IMG/VR virus record: IMGVR_UViG_3300032242_001185
Location: 1-61,916 of that record
Reading direction: 5' to 3' (one strand)
Source: a virus
Length of the DNA: 61,916 nucleotides
The notes beneath the pieces are model-generated. The model had not been told where the DNA came from. It made no database searches and saw only the letters and a list, made by a program, of their open reading frames with translations. A program made the position numbers and the translations under genes. This document shows positions 30,174-52,745 of the stretch, in pieces. Numbering within the stretch: position 1 is the stretch's first letter; every line of letters starts with the position of its first letter.

Positions 30174-31736
30174 CTATTTGCCAGATAAGAAGTTAATCAG
30201 ACTTCCTACCGTCATGTCAACACCCCCAGCAGAATTAATTCCTTTGCCATCCAAAACTGCGTTGGCTATGGACTTCTTTTGCTGAAGCATGTCGTACTGT
30301 CTTTGTTCAATTGATTCTTTAATAAGAATGTCTTGAATAGTAATACTAGTCCATTCCGAGGACGTTCTATTAATTCGACCATTTCTTTGAACGGATAAGC
30401 CCGCAGACCATGGTTGGTCATAGTTTAACAACAAGTTTGCTTGAGGCAAATCTACACCATAACCACCAGCATCGCTAGACACCAAAACTCTAATGTGGCT
30501 TCTTGTTTGAAATTTTACTTTAGCGTCTTCTTTTTTGACAGCGTTCATTTCGCCAGTGTATGCGACTGCGCCAAAACCTTTGGCGTTTAGTTTTTCTACA
30601 AGTTCGTCAACTGAGCGTAAATACGATGTAAACACTACCGCTTTGTAACTTTCGTCAATGTTTAGATGGTCAGATAAATAAACCATGGCAGCATCAAGTT
30701 TTGGTGTTTTTGTAATTCCGTGCAACATGTCACCTAGAGAGTGAATGTATGCGCTTCCTTTACCTGTGTGGGCTTGAAAGTTTTCGTAACTGTCTAACAA
30801 CACATGTGGGCTAGAACATAACATTCTCAGTGCTCCAATACGGGACATAATTTCTCCACGCATTTGGTTTGCAGGGTCGCCTGGGTCAAAGGTTTGTCCG
30901 TAGTGTGCGGCAAGATTAAAGTTTTTACCAAATAGTTCTTTGGCATCGTAAAGTATTTGCAAAAGGTCGTTGGCAATGTGTCTATACAAATGTATAGACG
31001 CTTTATCTAGTTGGACAAGTATTGGTTCTCTGTAGAACGCTTCGGGTAGGTATGGTGCTACGTCTTCATCTTTTTGTGATTTTCTAACAGAATGTTTGAC
31101 AAGCACTTGATGCAAAGTTGGTAAGTTTCGGTATTTGTCTACTCCACCAAAATGATTTCTGACAATAAATGTTTTATCAAAAATGTCAAACCTGCCAAGT
31201 ACGGTGGAATCTACAAATTGCATGATGGAAAAGATTTCTTCAGGTTTTCCGTTTTCAATTGGGGTTCCTGTTAAAGCAAATTTGATTTCGACTTTTTTGG
31301 CGAGGTCTTTGACTCGCTTGGCTCTTTTTGCTTTAAAGCCTTTGATGGCTGTGGCTTCATCACACACGATGGCATCAAAATGAAAGTTTTTGATTAACTC
31401 CCAGTCATTGACTACTTGTTCGTAGTTCATGATGACGTAGTCGTGGTCTAGTATTTGTTCAAATTGTTTTTTTCGTACTGTGGCTGTGCCGTCTATTACT
31501 AGCGATGTGCTGTCAGAAAATTTAGCAATTTCTTTTTGCCACTGAAACTTTAAACTAGCAAGGCAAAGAACAAGAGTAAGTTTTGGTTTAAGTTCTTCAA
31601 TTGCCGCAATGGTCATTGGGGTTTTTCCCAAACCCATTTCGTAAGCCACAAGGATGCGACGCTGTGCAACCATCTTATCGACTGCTTCAACCTGATACGG
31701 TTTTAGCGTCCCCTTGAACATAGGCTTGTTCTCCAA
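30174..31736 (-). CDS. SNF2-family superfamily II helicase
   Basis: A 520-residue ATPase. Motif I is YEMGLGKT (34-39), motif II DEAT at 126-129 (a variation on DEAH/DEAD), motif III LTGTPIEN, and the C-terminal lobe has VFTSY, DAGGYGVDLPQA and QRNGRINR (motif VI with arginine fingers). This domain order is typical of phage SNF2-like proteins, proposed to remodel replication forks or recombination intermediates like T4 UvsW. It overlaps the primase gene by 50 bases. Confidence 0.92.
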   Translation of the reverse strand: MENKPMFKGTLKPYQVEAVDKMVAQRRILVAYEMGLGKTPMTIAAIEELKPKLTLVLCLASLKFQWQKEIAKFSDSTSLVIDGTATVRKKQFEQILDHDYVIMNYEQVVNDWELIKNFHFDAIVCDEATAIKGFKAKRAKRVKDLAKKVEIKFALTGTPIENGKPEEIFSIMQFVDSTVLGRFDIFDKTFIVRNHFGGVDKYRNLPTLHQVLVKHSVRKSQKDEDVAPYLPEAFYREPILVQLDKASIHLYRHIANDLLQILYDAKELFGKNFNLAAHYGQTFDPGDPANQMRGEIMSRIGALRMLCSSPHVLLDSYENFQAHTGKGSAYIHSLGDMLHGITKTPKLDAAMVYLSDHLNIDESYKAVVFTSYLRSVDELVEKLNAKGFGAVAYTGEMNAVKKEDAKVKFQTRSHIRVLVSSDAGGYGVDLPQANLLLNYDQPWSAGLSVQRNGRINRTSSEWTSITIQDILIKESIEQRQYDMLQQKKSIANAVLDGKGINSAGGVDMTVGSLINFLSGK

Positions 31737-32694
31737 AAAGTGATGACACGGCGTTATTTACTCCCCAACGAATTTCTTCGTCAGTCATGTCGCCAGGGTC
31801 TTTCTTATTTGTATCACCATAATTAAAGAAAAACAGGTTCAACCCGTACTTCCTAGCCCACTCCAGCATCTCCTTGCTGGCTTTGCGACCAGCGGAATCA
31901 ATGTTGGGATTATCAAAAGCAGCAATAATTTTGTCTGAGTAACGTAAAAGTTTTACTTGGTCTTCTGATAAAGATGACCCACAGATTGCTACAGCGCCAG
32001 TGATACCAGCACTGTCAATACGCACGCAATCGAGAGGAGACTCAACGACAATAGCCAAGGATTCATTTTGGTTCTCAATTCCGAATAATGTTTTTGATTT
32101 AGGTAGCCCTGTTGGACGGTTAAAGAATGTGCGGTCAACTGTGCCTTTTTCTTGCCAGCCAATTAACTTGTTAAAGTGAGGTTCTCGTAATGGAAGAACC
32201 CATGCTTGTTTGTTTTTGTTCCACATAACATTGTATTTTGTTATGGAAGTTTCCTTTAAGTTACGTGCTTTTAGTTGTTCTGTCGGAGGTTCAACAAACA
32301 CCGCAAGGCGTGCTTCCGACATCTCCAAAGGCTTTGGTACACCCTTAAAATAGTTTGGTAAGGCGTTTAGTTGTTCCAATAATGTTTCTACGGAAACATC
32401 TGCACTAAGTTTTAACCACTCTTTTGCGGCTTCGTAGTCGTATGCTTCAACATTGTTCCATGTGATGTGGAAGTCTTTGACATCGCAAACCAACTGCAAC
32501 AAGTTGCCTTTGTATCCGCAGGAAAAACAAAGATGCATACCTGTGGACAAATTAATCCACCATGATGGGGAGTTGTCTGCTTTACCTGTTCGGGCAAAGT
32601 GCATTGGGCATAGGGCATTAGCCTCGTAGGCTCGAGTGTCGTAATCTACGCCCAGTGAATCTAAGGCTGAAACAACATCAAATGTAATGTGCAT
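31687..32694 (-). CDS. DnaG-type primase with CHC2 zinc finger and TOPRIM
   Basis: A 335-residue protein from the ATG at 32694, fixed by the TAATG overlap with the helicase. Zinc ligands are Cys29, His32, Cys56 and Cys59 (CHC2). TOPRIM is seen as VVESPLDCVRI (Glu) and AAFDNPNID (Asp-x-Asp-like). It is shorter than bacterial DnaG and lacks a helicase-interaction domain that I can recognise. It makes RNA primers for lagging-strand synthesis beside the DnaB-like helicase. Confidence 0.92.
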   Translation of the reverse strand: MHITFDVVSALDSLGVDYDTRAYEANALCPMHFARTGKADNSPSWWINLSTGMHLCFSCGYKGNLLQLVCDVKDFHITWNNVEAYDYEAAKEWLKLSADVSVETLLEQLNALPNYFKGVPKPLEMSEARLAVFVEPPTEQLKARNLKETSITKYNVMWNKNKQAWVLPLREPHFNKLIGWQEKGTVDRTFFNRPTGLPKSKTLFGIENQNESLAIVVESPLDCVRIDSAGITGAVAICGSSLSEDQVKLLRYSDKIIAAFDNPNIDSAGRKASKEMLEWARKYGLNLFFFNYGDTNKKDPGDMTDEEIRWGVNNAVSSLFGEQAYVQGDAKTVSG

Positions 32695-33944
32695 TAGATT
32701 GACCACGCAGTGCAGAACTTACAGCCAGCCTTTTTAGAATCATCGTGGAAACAACCTGTGTCCCAATCCCAAGTGATGCTGCCCGTGCTAGGTGGGCAGT
32801 TACGTGATTGAACAATACCCAAAATGCGTTCGGTGTCGTTCTCTTCGTCAATGCGTTCCAATCCAAGGATTACATCTGAGTCTTGGAAGAACGATGACGA
32901 GTAACCGATTGAGTCAGCGGAAACTTTGCCGCCTTTCATTTTCCAAAGAAGAGTCTGGGTGGTAATGACCACTGGAATGTTCATTTTCTGGGCTACACGC
33001 TTTAGACCACGAGTAATGTTGGTCAACGCTTGTGGAGTGTTAGCATCGCCTGTGACTTGGTCAAGCATCAGATACACACCGTCAATAAACAAAATGTCGG
33101 GGTTTAGTTGTTCTGCTTTGGCAACAATAGAGTCAATGGTCAAACCGTTCACAGCGTCAACAAGGTGGAACGGAATCTGTTTCGGCATTTCAGCCAACAA
33201 CTCTTTGTAGCGTTCTTCCTCTTTCTTGTTTAGTTTTCCGTTACGCAAACGGGTAGAAGAAATGTTTGCACGCATCGAGTCGTGGCGCTGAGTCTGTTCG
33301 TGGTTGTTCATTTCAAACGATTGGAACATTGGAATCTTGCCAGCCTTGTGAACGTTAATTGCCATAGCCAGAGCAATCTGTGACTTACCAGTTTTTGGTG
33401 GGGCAATAATTGTAATCAACTGTCCACCCTGCAATCCAGCGGTGGCTTCGTCAATCTTTTCAAAGCCTGTGGGGATGCCCAAAAACTTGTGGTTCTGCAG
33501 GTTTTCATACTCTTCAAAACGCTGGTCTGAGTTAACAGTCAAGTCCACGTGGGTTGTGCCAATAACGCCCTGAGAGTTTACCTCTGTGACAGTTTTAGAC
33601 ATTTCGGACAATGCGGCTTCATGGTCGTTCTGCGACATTTTCAACATAACATCTTGCAGACCGTTACGGGTCATCATGTTGCGCCGAAAGTTAACCATCG
33701 TATCAATCAAATAGTCCATGGACTCTTCGATGTTGTACATGGTGAAGTTAGGGAAGTTGTCCTTAACTGTTTCAGGTGTTGGAACTACACGATAGTTAGC
33801 GTAGTGTTCACGAATAAACTTCCATACACGGCGCAAATCGTCATCCAAAAACCAGTCATCTTTAATACCCTGCTCAATTACAGGAATGATTACACGGTCA
33901 CGAATAACTTTGCTTACAAGCCGTTGTTCGTTATCTAAAGCCAT
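32694..33944 (-). CDS. DnaB-like replicative helicase
   Basis: A 416-residue RecA-fold helicase. N-terminal helical domain to about 120, then GIPTGFEKIDEATAGLQGG-type entry and Walker A APPKTGKS at 181-188; Walker B is ILFIDGVYLM. The QRHDSMRANIS segment fits the DnaB linker region and RLRNGKL the helicase motif. The C-terminus ends with a Cys cluster (GCKFC with an earlier Cys pair), not standard in DnaB. It should be a hexamer loaded by the nearby DnaC-like ATPase. Confidence 0.9.
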   Translation of the reverse strand: MALDNEQRLVSKVIRDRVIIPVIEQGIKDDWFLDDDLRRVWKFIREHYANYRVVPTPETVKDNFPNFTMYNIEESMDYLIDTMVNFRRNMMTRNGLQDVMLKMSQNDHEAALSEMSKTVTEVNSQGVIGTTHVDLTVNSDQRFEEYENLQNHKFLGIPTGFEKIDEATAGLQGGQLITIIAPPKTGKSQIALAMAINVHKAGKIPMFQSFEMNNHEQTQRHDSMRANISSTRLRNGKLNKKEEERYKELLAEMPKQIPFHLVDAVNGLTIDSIVAKAEQLNPDILFIDGVYLMLDQVTGDANTPQALTNITRGLKRVAQKMNIPVVITTQTLLWKMKGGKVSADSIGYSSSFFQDSDVILGLERIDEENDTERILGIVQSRNCPPSTGSITWDWDTGCFHDDSKKAGCKFCTAWSI

Positions 33945-33964: not shown

Positions 33965-34384
33965 TTACAAGTTCTGCAGTTCGAGTCCCCGTGACCCGTA
34001 CCTTGCGACCCTTTCAGGTAAATCAATTACACCTTTTAGATTATTGCGGTAAGGCAACTCTCCAATAAAATCTTCAATGTCGTTATACAACTCTGCATAG
34101 TTAAACGGGTTGCCTCCACGAGCATCAAGTCGAGCCATAAGACTATCAAGGTCTTTCTGAGTCCACAACTCGGACTGAAATCCAGCCAGTTCAACCGACA
34201 AACCATACTTGCTTGACTTGTTCCACAAATGAGACAAAGCCAAGTTATTTAAACTAACAAATTTACGTTCAGTAGTGTTTGGCATAATGATGCGTTTGTT
34301 TTCTACAACATCAGAGTTAACAACAACATCCACAGTCACAATAATGCGTGGTGGGCTTTCGTTAGAAATGTCTCCGTTAATCAC
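33965..34384 (-). CDS. Hypothetical protein in the replisome operon
   Basis: A 139-residue protein with a beta-rich start (RIIVTVDVVVNSDVV) and helical middle (LDSLMARLDARGG). It has no recognised motif. It lies between SWIM and DnaB genes and overlaps the SWIM gene by four bases. A helicase or loader accessory is possible by position only. Confidence 0.63.
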   Translation of the reverse strand: MINGDISNESPPRIIVTVDVVVNSDVVENKRIIMPNTTERKFVSLNNLALSHLWNKSSKYGLSVELAGFQSELWTQKDLDSLMARLDARGGNPFNYAELYNDIEDFIGELPYRNNLKGVIDLPERVARYGSRGLELQNL

Positions 34385-34689
34385 AGTACTTCAATCTTTC
34401 CATACTTGATAACAAGTTCACGAAACGAATCAGTGTCCCGCAAAGAAGCCTGAGCCTCTTCATCATCAATTTCTGCTGGCAAAACCAAATTAAAAACACC
34501 ACCAGTAGCCTTCATTTTTTCTTTAACAAACTTGGTGTGTTTACAACCTGCAATGCTTTGAAACTTTGGACAAGTGCAACGCAACTTGCTTGAGTTCATA
34601 GCGTCAATAGAAACTTCAGAAATAGCCATCTCCTCGTCAATGAACATTTGAATAGTACGCCACTCGATTTCCATAAATTTCCTTTTCAC
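34381..34689 (-). CDS. SWIM-like zinc-finger protein
   Basis: A 102-residue protein with CTCPKFQSIAGCKH: Cys38, Cys40, Cys49 and His51, exactly the CxCx(n)CxH SWIM signature. SWIM fingers bind DNA or partner proteins such as recombination mediators. Start may be the second Met at 34674. Adjacent to the helicase loader, which suggests a replication or recombination accessory. Confidence 0.72.
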   Translation of the reverse strand: MKRKFMEIEWRTIQMFIDEEMAISEVSIDAMNSSKLRCTCPKFQSIAGCKHTKFVKEKMKATGGVFNLVLPAEIDDEEAQASLRDTDSFRELVIKYGKIEVL

Positions 34690-35393
34690 TTCTGACGCAA
34701 GTCTTTGCCAACGATAACAACACGGCGGAACGCTTCGTGTACAAAACTTCCCATAGCCTCACCATACTGGGCAGCCCAATTGTCACGATTTACATTTGTC
34801 GTAATAATTGTAGGCAACCCTTTGTCGTAACGGGCTCGCAAAATCTCATCAAAAGAAGTGTCATCGTACTTTGAGCCATACTCTTTGCCCAAATCATCCA
34901 AAACCAAAACACGAACATTCAACCAGTCTTCTTTGGCACGCCCATGAAACCCTTCCATCTCACGATACAAGTCACCACGAACATCATCGTCAGCGTTAAT
35001 CAACGCTTTCTTACGAGACAAAAACTCTGGGAAAGTCATGTAATAGATTGGGCGCATAGCATGCTCCGCTTTACCCCCAAGGATACGACTAGCATCCTCT
35101 TCAGGCATACGGCGAATAAACTCCATCAACGCACAAACGGCGTGAGTAGTTTTACCCAAACCAGGTCCACCATCGAAGAGTAGCCCAACACCAGTAGTGC
35201 CAAGACCACCAATGTTTTTAATGACGTCGCCCTCCAACGCCATAGCAAGCCACTCTTCGATGATGGCTGGAAACTTACCCATGTCCTTCACAATGTCTTC
35301 AAAACCAAACCCCATAAAACGGCGAGGAATGTTTGAGTTACGAAACAGCCACTGCCGTTTCAAAGATGACAACTCAGAGATGTCATAAGTCAT
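34686..35393 (-). CDS. DnaC-like AAA+ helicase loader
   Basis: A 235-residue ATPase with Walker A GGPGLGKT (75-82), Walker B VLVLDDLGKE, sensor-1 TTNVNRD and an arginine-finger region FRRVV near the end. These match DnaC/DnaI loaders. It sits between the initiator and the helicase genes, in an order of initiator, loader and helicase found in many phages. Confidence 0.87.
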   Translation of the reverse strand: MTYDISELSSLKRQWLFRNSNIPRRFMGFGFEDIVKDMGKFPAIIEEWLAMALEGDVIKNIGGLGTTGVGLLFDGGPGLGKTTHAVCALMEFIRRMPEEDASRILGGKAEHAMRPIYYMTFPEFLSRKKALINADDDVRGDLYREMEGFHGRAKEDWLNVRVLVLDDLGKEYGSKYDDTSFDEILRARYDKGLPTIITTNVNRDNWAAQYGEAMGSFVHEAFRRVVIVGKDLRQK

Positions 35394-35395
35394 GT

Positions 35396-36298
35396 TTAGC
35401 CCTTCAATTTTTCTTCATAACGCTCAAGCGCCTTACGCCCAGGCATCGAGTTATCAAACTCTTTACCATCAGAAGCATAAACATACACATCAGACTGGAC
35501 AGAGTCAACAGCCCCAGTCGCCGCAACATGTTTAGTAATGGCGTTCAAAAAAGTTCCGTGAGCGCCCTTAGGAAATTTACGAATCGTAGCCAGATTACGT
35601 TCATCAGCAAAAAACTTCTCCAACGCCGCATACTCTTGAGCCGCAGTAATCCCAAACTTCTTACGATTAACATTCAACGCAATCGTCAACCGTTGAGTAT
35701 TAACCAACCCAGGGATACCCCTCACCTTAGCGTAAACCCTAGAAGCAAACTCACTAGCCATCATGGACGCAGTCCATGCGTCCGTAGGACGCTCACTCCG
35801 ATGCTGTTTCTGTTTCTGAACAGGAGTCTGATTCAAAGGAACTTTACCCTCCAAAGAACCAAACCCACCAATCTCAGAATCCTCATCAGACCAACGATTA
35901 ACCACAGAACCCTCCCGAGAAGAATTATTTAACTTACTAGTAGATTTAGTAGACTTAATAGACTTAGTAGTAATTACTACACTTGTTGGTGTGTCACCCA
36001 TGACACTTCCCTCAGCCAACATTTTAGCCCTCGATGTGTCATGGGGGCTACATCGCAAAATTTTATAAGTATTCTCCGACAACAACCCATAATTGCGTTT
36101 TGTACGAGTAACCCGAACCCAACCATCCTCAGCCAACGACTCCACCGCACGATGCACAGAAGAACGAGAATACCCCGTCAACTCACCCAACATCTCCATC
36201 GAAGCACGAACAACACCCTGCCTAGACTCCAAATGGCACAAAGCCAAAAACACCCGCAACTGCGCTGGTTTCAACTCCAACAACGCCAACGAATCCAT
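35396..36298 (-). CDS. Winged-helix replication initiator-like protein
   Basis: A 300-residue protein. Residues about 8-75 form a winged helix: LKPAQLRVFLALCHL, then MLGELTGYSRSSVHRAVESL and DGWVRVTR, typical of phage replication initiators. A Thr/Ser/Lys-rich linker follows (about 105-125). C-terminally there is a helical domain (ALEKFFADERNL) likely to bind the loader/helicase. The gene contains repeats resembling iterons in its linker. Lambda O has the same layout: DNA-binding domain, linker over ori, then partner-binding domain. Confidence 0.72.
   Translation of the reverse strand: MDSLALLELKPAQLRVFLALCHLESRQGVVRASMEMLGELTGYSRSSVHRAVESLAEDGWVRVTRTKRNYGLLSENTYKILRCSPHDTSRAKMLAEGSVMGDTPTSVVITTKSIKSTKSTSKLNNSSREGSVVNRWSDEDSEIGGFGSLEGKVPLNQTPVQKQKQHRSERPTDAWTASMMASEFASRVYAKVRGIPGLVNTQRLTIALNVNRKKFGITAAQEYAALEKFFADERNLATIRKFPKGAHGTFLNAITKHVAATGAVDSVQSDVYVYASDGKEFDNSMPGRKALERYEEKLKG
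35935..35980. repeat. Iteron-like 9-bp repeats flanked by palindromes inside the initiator gene
   Basis: On the plus strand the 8-bp palindrome TACTAGTA (35935-35942) is followed by AGATTTAGT, AGACTTAAT and AGACTTAGT (35942-35968), then the perfect 14-bp palindrome GTAGTAATTACTAC (35967-35980). The segment is AT-rich. It encodes the low-complexity Thr/Ser/Lys linker. Origin iterons within an initiator gene are known from lambda O. Confidence 0.5.
35991..36045. repeat. Inverted repeats TGTCA-type near the iterons
   Basis: GTGTCA-CCCA-TGACAC (35991-36006) is a palindrome with a four-base centre. CCCATGACAC (35997-36006) also pairs at 10 bp with GTGTCATGGG (36036-36045). The sites could be initiator boxes or coincidental coding repeats. 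Confidence 0.4.
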
Positions 36299-36301
36299 AC
36301 C

Positions 36302-36565
36302 CTACCTCCTACGAATAGTCTGAACCTCAACAGGCTTTGAAACCGCCGCCATAATAACCAACGAAACAAAACCAGAAGCACAAGCATAAACAAAAATTTT
36401 GCCGCCACTTACGCCAAGCAACAACAAAGCCGCAAAACTGAAAGGTAACGTAAAAATTAGTTTGATAAGACGGGGAGAAACCCAACCATCAATAAGGGAA
36501 GTAATAAACTCAAGGCTATAACCCGAGGCAAAACCAGCAATAAGTACTGAAATTAAAATGTCCAT
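36302..36565 (-). CDS. Small integral membrane protein
   Basis: An 87-residue protein with two to three hydrophobic spans: SVLIAGFASGYSLEFI, LPFSFAALLLLGVSGG and KIFVYACASGFVSLVIMA. The C-terminus ends basic (RRR). It lies between the tail and replication modules. Holins have this size and topology, but no lysin neighbour is seen, so holin is only one option. Confidence 0.62.
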   Translation of the reverse strand: MDILISVLIAGFASGYSLEFITSLIDGWVSPRLIKLIFTLPFSFAALLLLGVSGGKIFVYACASGFVSLVIMAAVSKPVEVQTIRRR

Positions 36566-52726: not shown

Positions 52727-52745
52727 AGGCAGACAATGTCTGCCT
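52727..52745 (-). terminator. Rho-independent terminator after the basic mini-gene cluster
   Basis: AGGCAGAC (52727-52734) and GTCTGCCT (52738-52745) form an eight-bp stem around AAT. Read on the minus strand it continues into TTTTTCTTT. It lies 24 bases after the stop at 52770 and separates the mini-gene cluster from the tail completion genes. Confidence 0.85.

Follow-up and report, generated by a model that had tools for sequence, protein, structure and literature searches.

A probable replication origin inside the O-like initiator gene of an uncultured phage

Introduction

The initiator gene of an uncultured phage very probably carries the origin of replication within its own coding sequence. 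The DNA analysed here (the window) is the complete 61,916-base virus record of that phage. We infer origin function, and with it the start of replication in this gene, from the position of a short segment beside the replication genes, from its anatomy and from selection that acts on it at the DNA level. An origin within the initiator gene is a known arrangement in lambda and in some plasmids; here it occurs in an undescribed phage lineage. The case is quantitative, is made from sequence only, and concerns a phage family without close cultured relatives. It includes a natural control, a clade in which the segment became non-coding and its elements were kept.

Results

The initiator gene and its neighbours

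The product of the initiator gene matches three PHROG profiles: PHROG 678, 'replication initiation O-like' (E 8.8e-9), PHROG 270 (E 4.3e-8) and PHROG 391 (E 7.1e-7). PHROG 678 is also matched by 41 of 47 relatives. AlphaFold, supplied with 47 sequences, modelled a winged helix (residues 1-88), a disordered stretch (88-150, pLDDT < 50) and a helical C-terminal domain. Residues 1-88 of the model align to solved winged helices, including the initiator N-domains 4pql and 4pt7 (Z 9.7 and 9.2). Downstream on the same strand come genes for a DnaC-like loader, for a protein whose SWIM zinc-finger match is below threshold and for a protein of 139 aa, then those for a DnaB helicase, a CHC2/Toprim primase and an SNF2-type helicase (Table 1). 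A first-pass annotation of this DNA had described a winged-helix initiator ahead of loader, helicase and primase genes, with the elements of interest in its linker. The Pfam and PHROG matches (E 9e-9 for the O-like profile) and the AlphaFold model, with its pLDDT below 50 at residues 88-150, bear this out.

Membership of the lambda O family is not established, as the O-like PHROG profiles match, but Pfam and the C-terminal domain do not. Among the Pfam families matched by the 47 members (E 0.01), the lambda replication protein O model was absent and only general winged-helix models were found; RepA_N was absent from the same matches, the resemblance to it being one of winged-helix fold only. 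The C-terminal domain of the window matched no PHROG profile. Its best Foldseek E was 2.1 and its best VIA Z was 7.0, to an unrelated protein, which is not evidence of a new fold.

Table 1. Coordinates of the initiator gene, the elements of its linker-coding segment and the neighbouring replication genes in the window
Feature	Position	Strand	Basis or remark
O-like replication initiator gene, 300 aa (winged helix, disordered linker, helical C-terminal domain)	35396-36298	-	PHROG, AlphaFold
Winged-helix DNA-binding domain, residues 1-80	36059-36298	-	MarR_2 31.4 bits, above cut-off
Candidate iteron 1, imperfect dyad GATGTGTCATGGGGGCTACATC (+ strand)	36033-36054	.	TGA(C/A)ACATC block; synonymous identity of region 0.75
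Candidate iteron 2, perfect dyad GTGTCA-CCCA-TGACAC (GTGTCACCCATGACAC)	35991-36006	.	synonymous identity of region 0.97
AT-rich tract, probable unwinding element	35919-35980	.	contains the 9-bp repeats and both palindromes
Three 9-bp near-repeats, TAGTAGAYT type, spacing 9	35938-35970	.	TRF 3.7 copies, score 52
8-bp palindrome TACTAGTA	35935-35942		
14-bp palindrome GTAGTAATTACTAC	35967-35980		
Internal RBS GGAGG (35911-35915) and in-frame start GTG (35903-35905)	35903-35915	-	conserved block, six relatives; synonymous identity 0.85
Predicted short product, C-terminal domain alone, 169 aa, residues 132-300	35399-35905	-	
DnaC-like helicase loader	34686-35393	-	PHROG 50 E 1.4e-29
DnaB-like replicative helicase	32694-33944	-	PF03796 E 1.6e-31; PHROG 19 E 8.5e-64
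Primase, CHC2 zinc finger and Toprim	31687-32706	-	PF13155, PF01807; PHROG 47 E 5.9e-33

Elements of the linker-coding segment

The three near-identical 9-bp repeats and the 8-bp and 14-bp palindromes are all present as first described, as are TGTCA-type inverted repeats beside them, at 35991-36006 and 36035-36045. All of these lie within the disordered stretch of the initiator. The interval originally proposed, 35935-36045, does hold these elements, but the functional segment is wider, from about 35900 to 36058, its end being formed by an internal ribosome-binding site and start codon of which the first-pass annotation made no mention. The sequence at 36035-36045, CCCATGACACA, has the orientation opposite to that of the inverted repeat in candidate iteron 2, which holds the sole perfect TGTCA-N4-TGACA in 61.9 kb. 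The 6-4-6 geometry of this dyad recurs in several other groups of relatives. The AT tract reaches ~76% AT over 35918-35983.

Measured against chance by shuffling synonymous codons with the protein kept, the window alone is only moderately unusual, in its 9-nt periodicity (p ~0.0016), its AT content above expectation (p 0.015) and its two inverted repeats with arms of at least 6 (p 0.04); the strong evidence comes from relatives. The 9-nt unit corresponds to three codons (T-K-S), and protein repetition therefore explains part of the periodicity. Elsewhere in the window, a tandem 15-nt unit, CGATGAGCCTGAAAC, is repeated 3.9 times with 97% matches at 1257-1314, inside a 682-aa ORF (412-2460).

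Synonymous sites are nearly frozen in the linker

Loci were collected with a loader query (80), a DNA pattern (15) and an initiator alignment (80). Removal of copies left 95 loci with the C-terminal domain, most of them also with the winged helix. No relatives were found in bacterial genomes, and GenBank phages yielded one weak winged-helix match only. The nearest six (the window, L003, L004, L007, L099 and L103) were compared by synonymous identity, the identical codons as a share of identical residues. The linker scored 0.865, the winged helix 0.455 and the C-terminal half 0.589, while amino-acid identity in the same six was lowest in the linker (0.617, versus 0.762 and 0.704). Core elements of the linker stood at 0.97-1.00, and the two halves of the AT tract at 0.85 and 1.00; constraint on the elements was significant by column permutation (p 5e-5). 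L103 and the window have only 24 of the 51 residues at 83-133 in common, yet all 24 comparable codons are identical. The pattern is repeated in eight further groups of relatives, and a distant clade of 14 members shows 0.880 in the linker versus 0.571 and 0.541 in the flanking domains.

Since synonymous sites are near-frozen exactly where amino acids are least conserved, selection acts on the nucleic acid and not on the protein. The constraint shows a nucleic-acid function without in itself specifying its kind. The first-pass annotation had named free variation at synonymous sites as the outcome that would speak against an origin inside the O-like gene; the sites are not free, and its proposal is well supported on this point, the start of replication following by inference.

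Dyads, repeats and the recognition helix

The blocks conserved in the window clade are TGA(C/A)ACATC, GTGTCA with its matching right arm, (C)AACA, the AT tract, and (A/G)GGAGG-N5-GTG. The first has a single variable position and is otherwise invariant across the six relatives, and the right arm of the GTGTCA dyad is GACAC in 5 of 6 members. Regular 9-bp repeats are seen in the window, L004 and L007; in L003, L099 and L103 they are disrupted, yet AT content is kept at 72-78% across the clade. Because regularity is lost while AT content stays, the 9-bp repeats are better seen as part of the AT tract than as binding sites, and their earlier reading as iterons is rejected.

Other relatives have, in the same place, up to three copies of a dyad of other sequence and like geometry, often with TCAACAGCTG at the end; GTTTCACCACTGAAAC, CCCACAAAAATGTGGG and GTAACACTAATGTTAC are examples. 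Across 50 loci, and with C-terminal distance controlled for, the dyad half-site is associated with the recognition helix (partial Mantel r 0.50, p 2e-4), although kinship effects are only partly removed by this test. The helix SRSSVHRA occurs with TGACACA, SRTTLWR with TGAAACAT, GRTSxSKA with GAACAT, SRExxR with TTGGCAT, and SxESxRR with TGTGGGGT. The two dyads of the window are thus likely binding sites of the initiator, and the many pairings of dyad type and recognition helix could be used directly to work out a recognition code for winged helices. In the distant clade, L026 and related loci have another type of linker repeat, in several copies resembling GAAAATTACCGCAC, and a small hairpin, in L026-like members GAAACACC-GAA-GGTGTTTC, with the GNA loop on the other strand.

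The two parts of the protein have different histories. L018 shares 65% identity with the window in the C-terminal domain and 34% in the winged helix; with L010 it shares 61% in the winged helix and 39% in the C-terminal domain. The winged helix and the origin part have accordingly been exchanged as a unit.

A split clade and an internal start

In five loci (L017, L036, L086, L096 and L152) the winged-helix gene is cut short by a TGA stop at the motif ACATCAACAGC, and beyond the segment a separate gene with its own start codon encodes the C-terminal domain. The segment no longer encodes a linker, yet ACATCAACAGC, the AT-rich stretch and the hairpins described below persist. The five loci group as a single clade (support 100/95) that is nested within the fused genes, so the split state is most simply derived.

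Where the C-terminal domain begins, 75 of 95 loci have an in-frame start together with an SD-like match of 5 nt or more, versus 22 of 874 control windows of the same size taken elsewhere in the same genes. This holds for ~66 of the 83 loci with an intact fused gene; 11 matches, in the distant clade, are of the weaker AGGTG type. Judged from this signal, the internal start of the window probably yields a C-terminal protein of 169 aa. L011-L016 and L029 have only the C-terminal domain beside the loader, which makes it probable that this domain works on its own; perhaps the short protein is an adaptor to the helicase loader or a regulator of the full-length form. At the place of the initiator in L011, L012, L013, L014, L016 and L029, no winged helix or origin hairpin was found. 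A search of five records of C-terminal-only phages, run without a positive control, detected no winged helix elsewhere, and these five records showed no origin hairpin either.

Hairpins in relatives

Outside the distant clade, a perfect hairpin stands between the AT tract and the internal start in 54 of 71 loci, in 28 distinct versions. All 28 have the loop TNC and a C-G closing pair. The inner eight pairs are Watson-Crick in 224 of 224 cells, with zero G-U, and seven of the eight show paired change. On the non-coding strand this first hairpin is always a C-GNA-G triloop, and it persists in the non-coding split clade. Related loci totalling 787 kb contain 56 hairpins with three-base loops and stems of at least 9, of which 54 are of the C-TNC-G or C-GNA-G type. 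The C-GNA-G hairpin is absent from the window, L003, L004, L007, L099, L103 and L001.

C-GNA-G is a class of stable DNA triloops (PMC5815330), and the hairpins extruded at the early promoters of N4 follow the same rule (PMC4496689). The hairpin of the relatives might act as a single-strand initiation site, like ssi of RSF1010 (PMC4434180). The DNA parameters of ViennaRNA give equal energy to all 64 triloops, and loop stability computed in this way therefore decides nothing.

Most relatives, L018 and L036 among them, have a second, GC-rich hairpin (GGGGC-NNNN-GCCCC or equivalents) directly before the internal ribosome site. Its sequence varies and its pairing is kept; it is absent in the window and in the L121 group. 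The sole perfect hairpin of the window with at least 8 bp and a 3-base loop, AGGCAGAC-AAT-GTCTGCCT, lies between listed ORFs at 52727-52745 and is possibly a terminator.

Composition and DnaA-type signals

Neither GC skew along the genome nor GC3 skew of the genes left and right of the site gave an interpretable switch. The coding (minus) strand is G+T-rich and C-poor at 34000-36550, with a peak at 36100-36400, and the third-position GC skew is +0.71 in the initiator gene versus about -0.1 to -0.3 in most genes. This asymmetry is also strong in L001, L004, L007 and L103, and is not seen in the close relative L003; C deamination on a strand exposed at an origin could produce it. The 61.9 kb contain four DnaA boxes (TTWTNCACA), the nearest more than 2 kb from the segment, and a DnaA-dependent origin was rejected on that account. 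DnaA-trio-like runs of CTA/TTA (8-11 triplets per 60 nt in the window clade) were rejected as well; they are missing in the non-coding split versions, which makes codon composition the simpler source.

Discussion

The explanation that accounts best for the whole, and to which we give high though not full credence, is that the segment at ~35900-36058 is an origin with dyads, an opening AT tract and loader recruitment, which also provides for a short form of the initiator. The winged helix would bind the two dyads of its own gene, probably as dimers, and so strain and open the AT-rich tract, of which the 9-bp repeats would be a part. The C-terminal domain, tethered by the disordered linker, would then bring the DnaC-like loader and the DnaB helicase, and the primase from the neighbouring gene would follow. 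The segment would end on the ribosome-binding site and start codon that are the probable source of the 169-aa protein. Some observations count against the origin reading: lambda has four iterons, but the segment has just two dyads, of which one is imperfect; GC skew shows no usable switch at the site; and the hairpin common in relatives is absent from the window clade.

It is improbable that the dyads are operators only, through which the winged-helix protein controls transcription of the replication operon, with the origin elsewhere. The winged helix does resemble transcription regulators of the MarR and Crp types, and the dyads alone would fit an operator, but the strongest constraint lies in the AT tract (1.00 at 35924-35950), which an operator does not need. 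The site is also ~240-300 nt inside the gene, not at a promoter, and architecture and gene order match those of origin-bearing initiators. Somewhat less probable again is a region for RNA-level control of the internal start, an mRNA structure or processing signal unrelated to replication. The segment does end in a conserved ribosome site and start, and in most relatives a GC-rich hairpin stands just before the ribosome site, as such control might lead one to expect. However, mRNA folding of the window is not unusual (z -1.3), neither RNA nor DNA folding of its segment was significant, and there was no Rfam match. Hairpins are absent from the window clade, where constraint is equally strong. 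In the relatives, the first hairpin contains no G-U in its inner pairs, and its loop agrees with a DNA triloop on the non-coding strand; both point away from RNA. The dyads, moreover, follow the recognition helix.

The linker might also contain no DNA element at all, its low-complexity Thr/Lys/Ser codons repeating by chance. The exact three-codon length of the 9-nt unit and the modest statistics of the window taken alone would agree with this, but synonymous sites hardly vary where the amino acids do, and the elements persist where the segment is non-coding. Chance repetition is already contradicted by these results and is very unlikely indeed.

Returning to the origin, a more far-reaching proposal is tentative and, in our view, rather doubtful. 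An element of ~150 nt would pack together the origin, the ribosome site for the C-terminal protein and, in most members, an extrudable C-GNA-G hairpin of the N4 class, on the non-coding strand, that might serve as a single-strand priming site or RNA polymerase start once the AT tract opens. The winged helix and origin would be swapped between phages as a cassette, and the window clade would have dropped the hairpin and kept the rest.

Comparison with known systems

The lambda origin lies within the O gene, where inverted-repeat iterons are bound by dimers of O and the adjoining AT tract is opened (PMC5043065, PMC7466680). The first-pass annotation had likened the window to lambda O for its iterons within the initiator gene, and the layout does match that of ori-lambda (PMC5043065). 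As in lambda and Stx phages, the putative origin segment lies mid-gene, the dyads are followed by an AT-rich tract, and a helicase-loading gene comes next (PMC5043065, PMC7466680); the initiator itself matches the 'O-like' PHROG profiles. In contrast to the four to six iterons of lambda and Stx phages, the window has two dyads of unrelated sequence. It also differs from lambda in its DnaC-like loader, in having its own DnaB and primase, in the lack of a lambda-O Pfam match, in the conserved internal start for the C-terminal half and, in most relatives, in the C-GNA-G hairpin.

For the RepA_N system of plasmid pSK41, the available part of the published account (PMC5703833) places the Rep boxes centrally in rep, with the linker encoded by the origin, and reports a different N-domain (HTH_36) in the related plasmid pPR9. 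There, as here, an N-terminal winged helix binds boxes central in its own gene, the C-terminal domain meets the replisome, and the N-domain with the origin part is exchangeable between replicons, if our reading of the window is right; the N-domains 4pql and 4pt7 are among its fold matches. The present case differs in being a phage, in a C-terminal domain that is unrelated as far as tested, and in an internal start and gene fission, which that part of the account does not describe for pSK41. Plasmid pIGRK likewise has an in-frame internal start in its initiator gene that yields an N-terminally shortened protein, RepR' beside RepR (PMC6854812). It is a plasmid of another family, and the short form predicted here would lack the whole DNA-binding domain and start at the edge of the origin.

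The hairpin of the relatives shares with phage N4 early promoters a C-GNA-G triloop on the template strand, which in N4 is the rule for extrusion and stability (PMC4496689); it has longer stems, lies beside the AT tract of a putative origin, and is absent in the window. Relative to lambda-type origins (PMC5043065, PMC7466680) and to pSK41 as described in the available part of its account (PMC5703833), what is new is the conserved internal start and, in relatives, the hairpin. The internal start and the hairpin beside the AT tract, which the papers cited here on lambda-type origins do not describe, are open to direct test.
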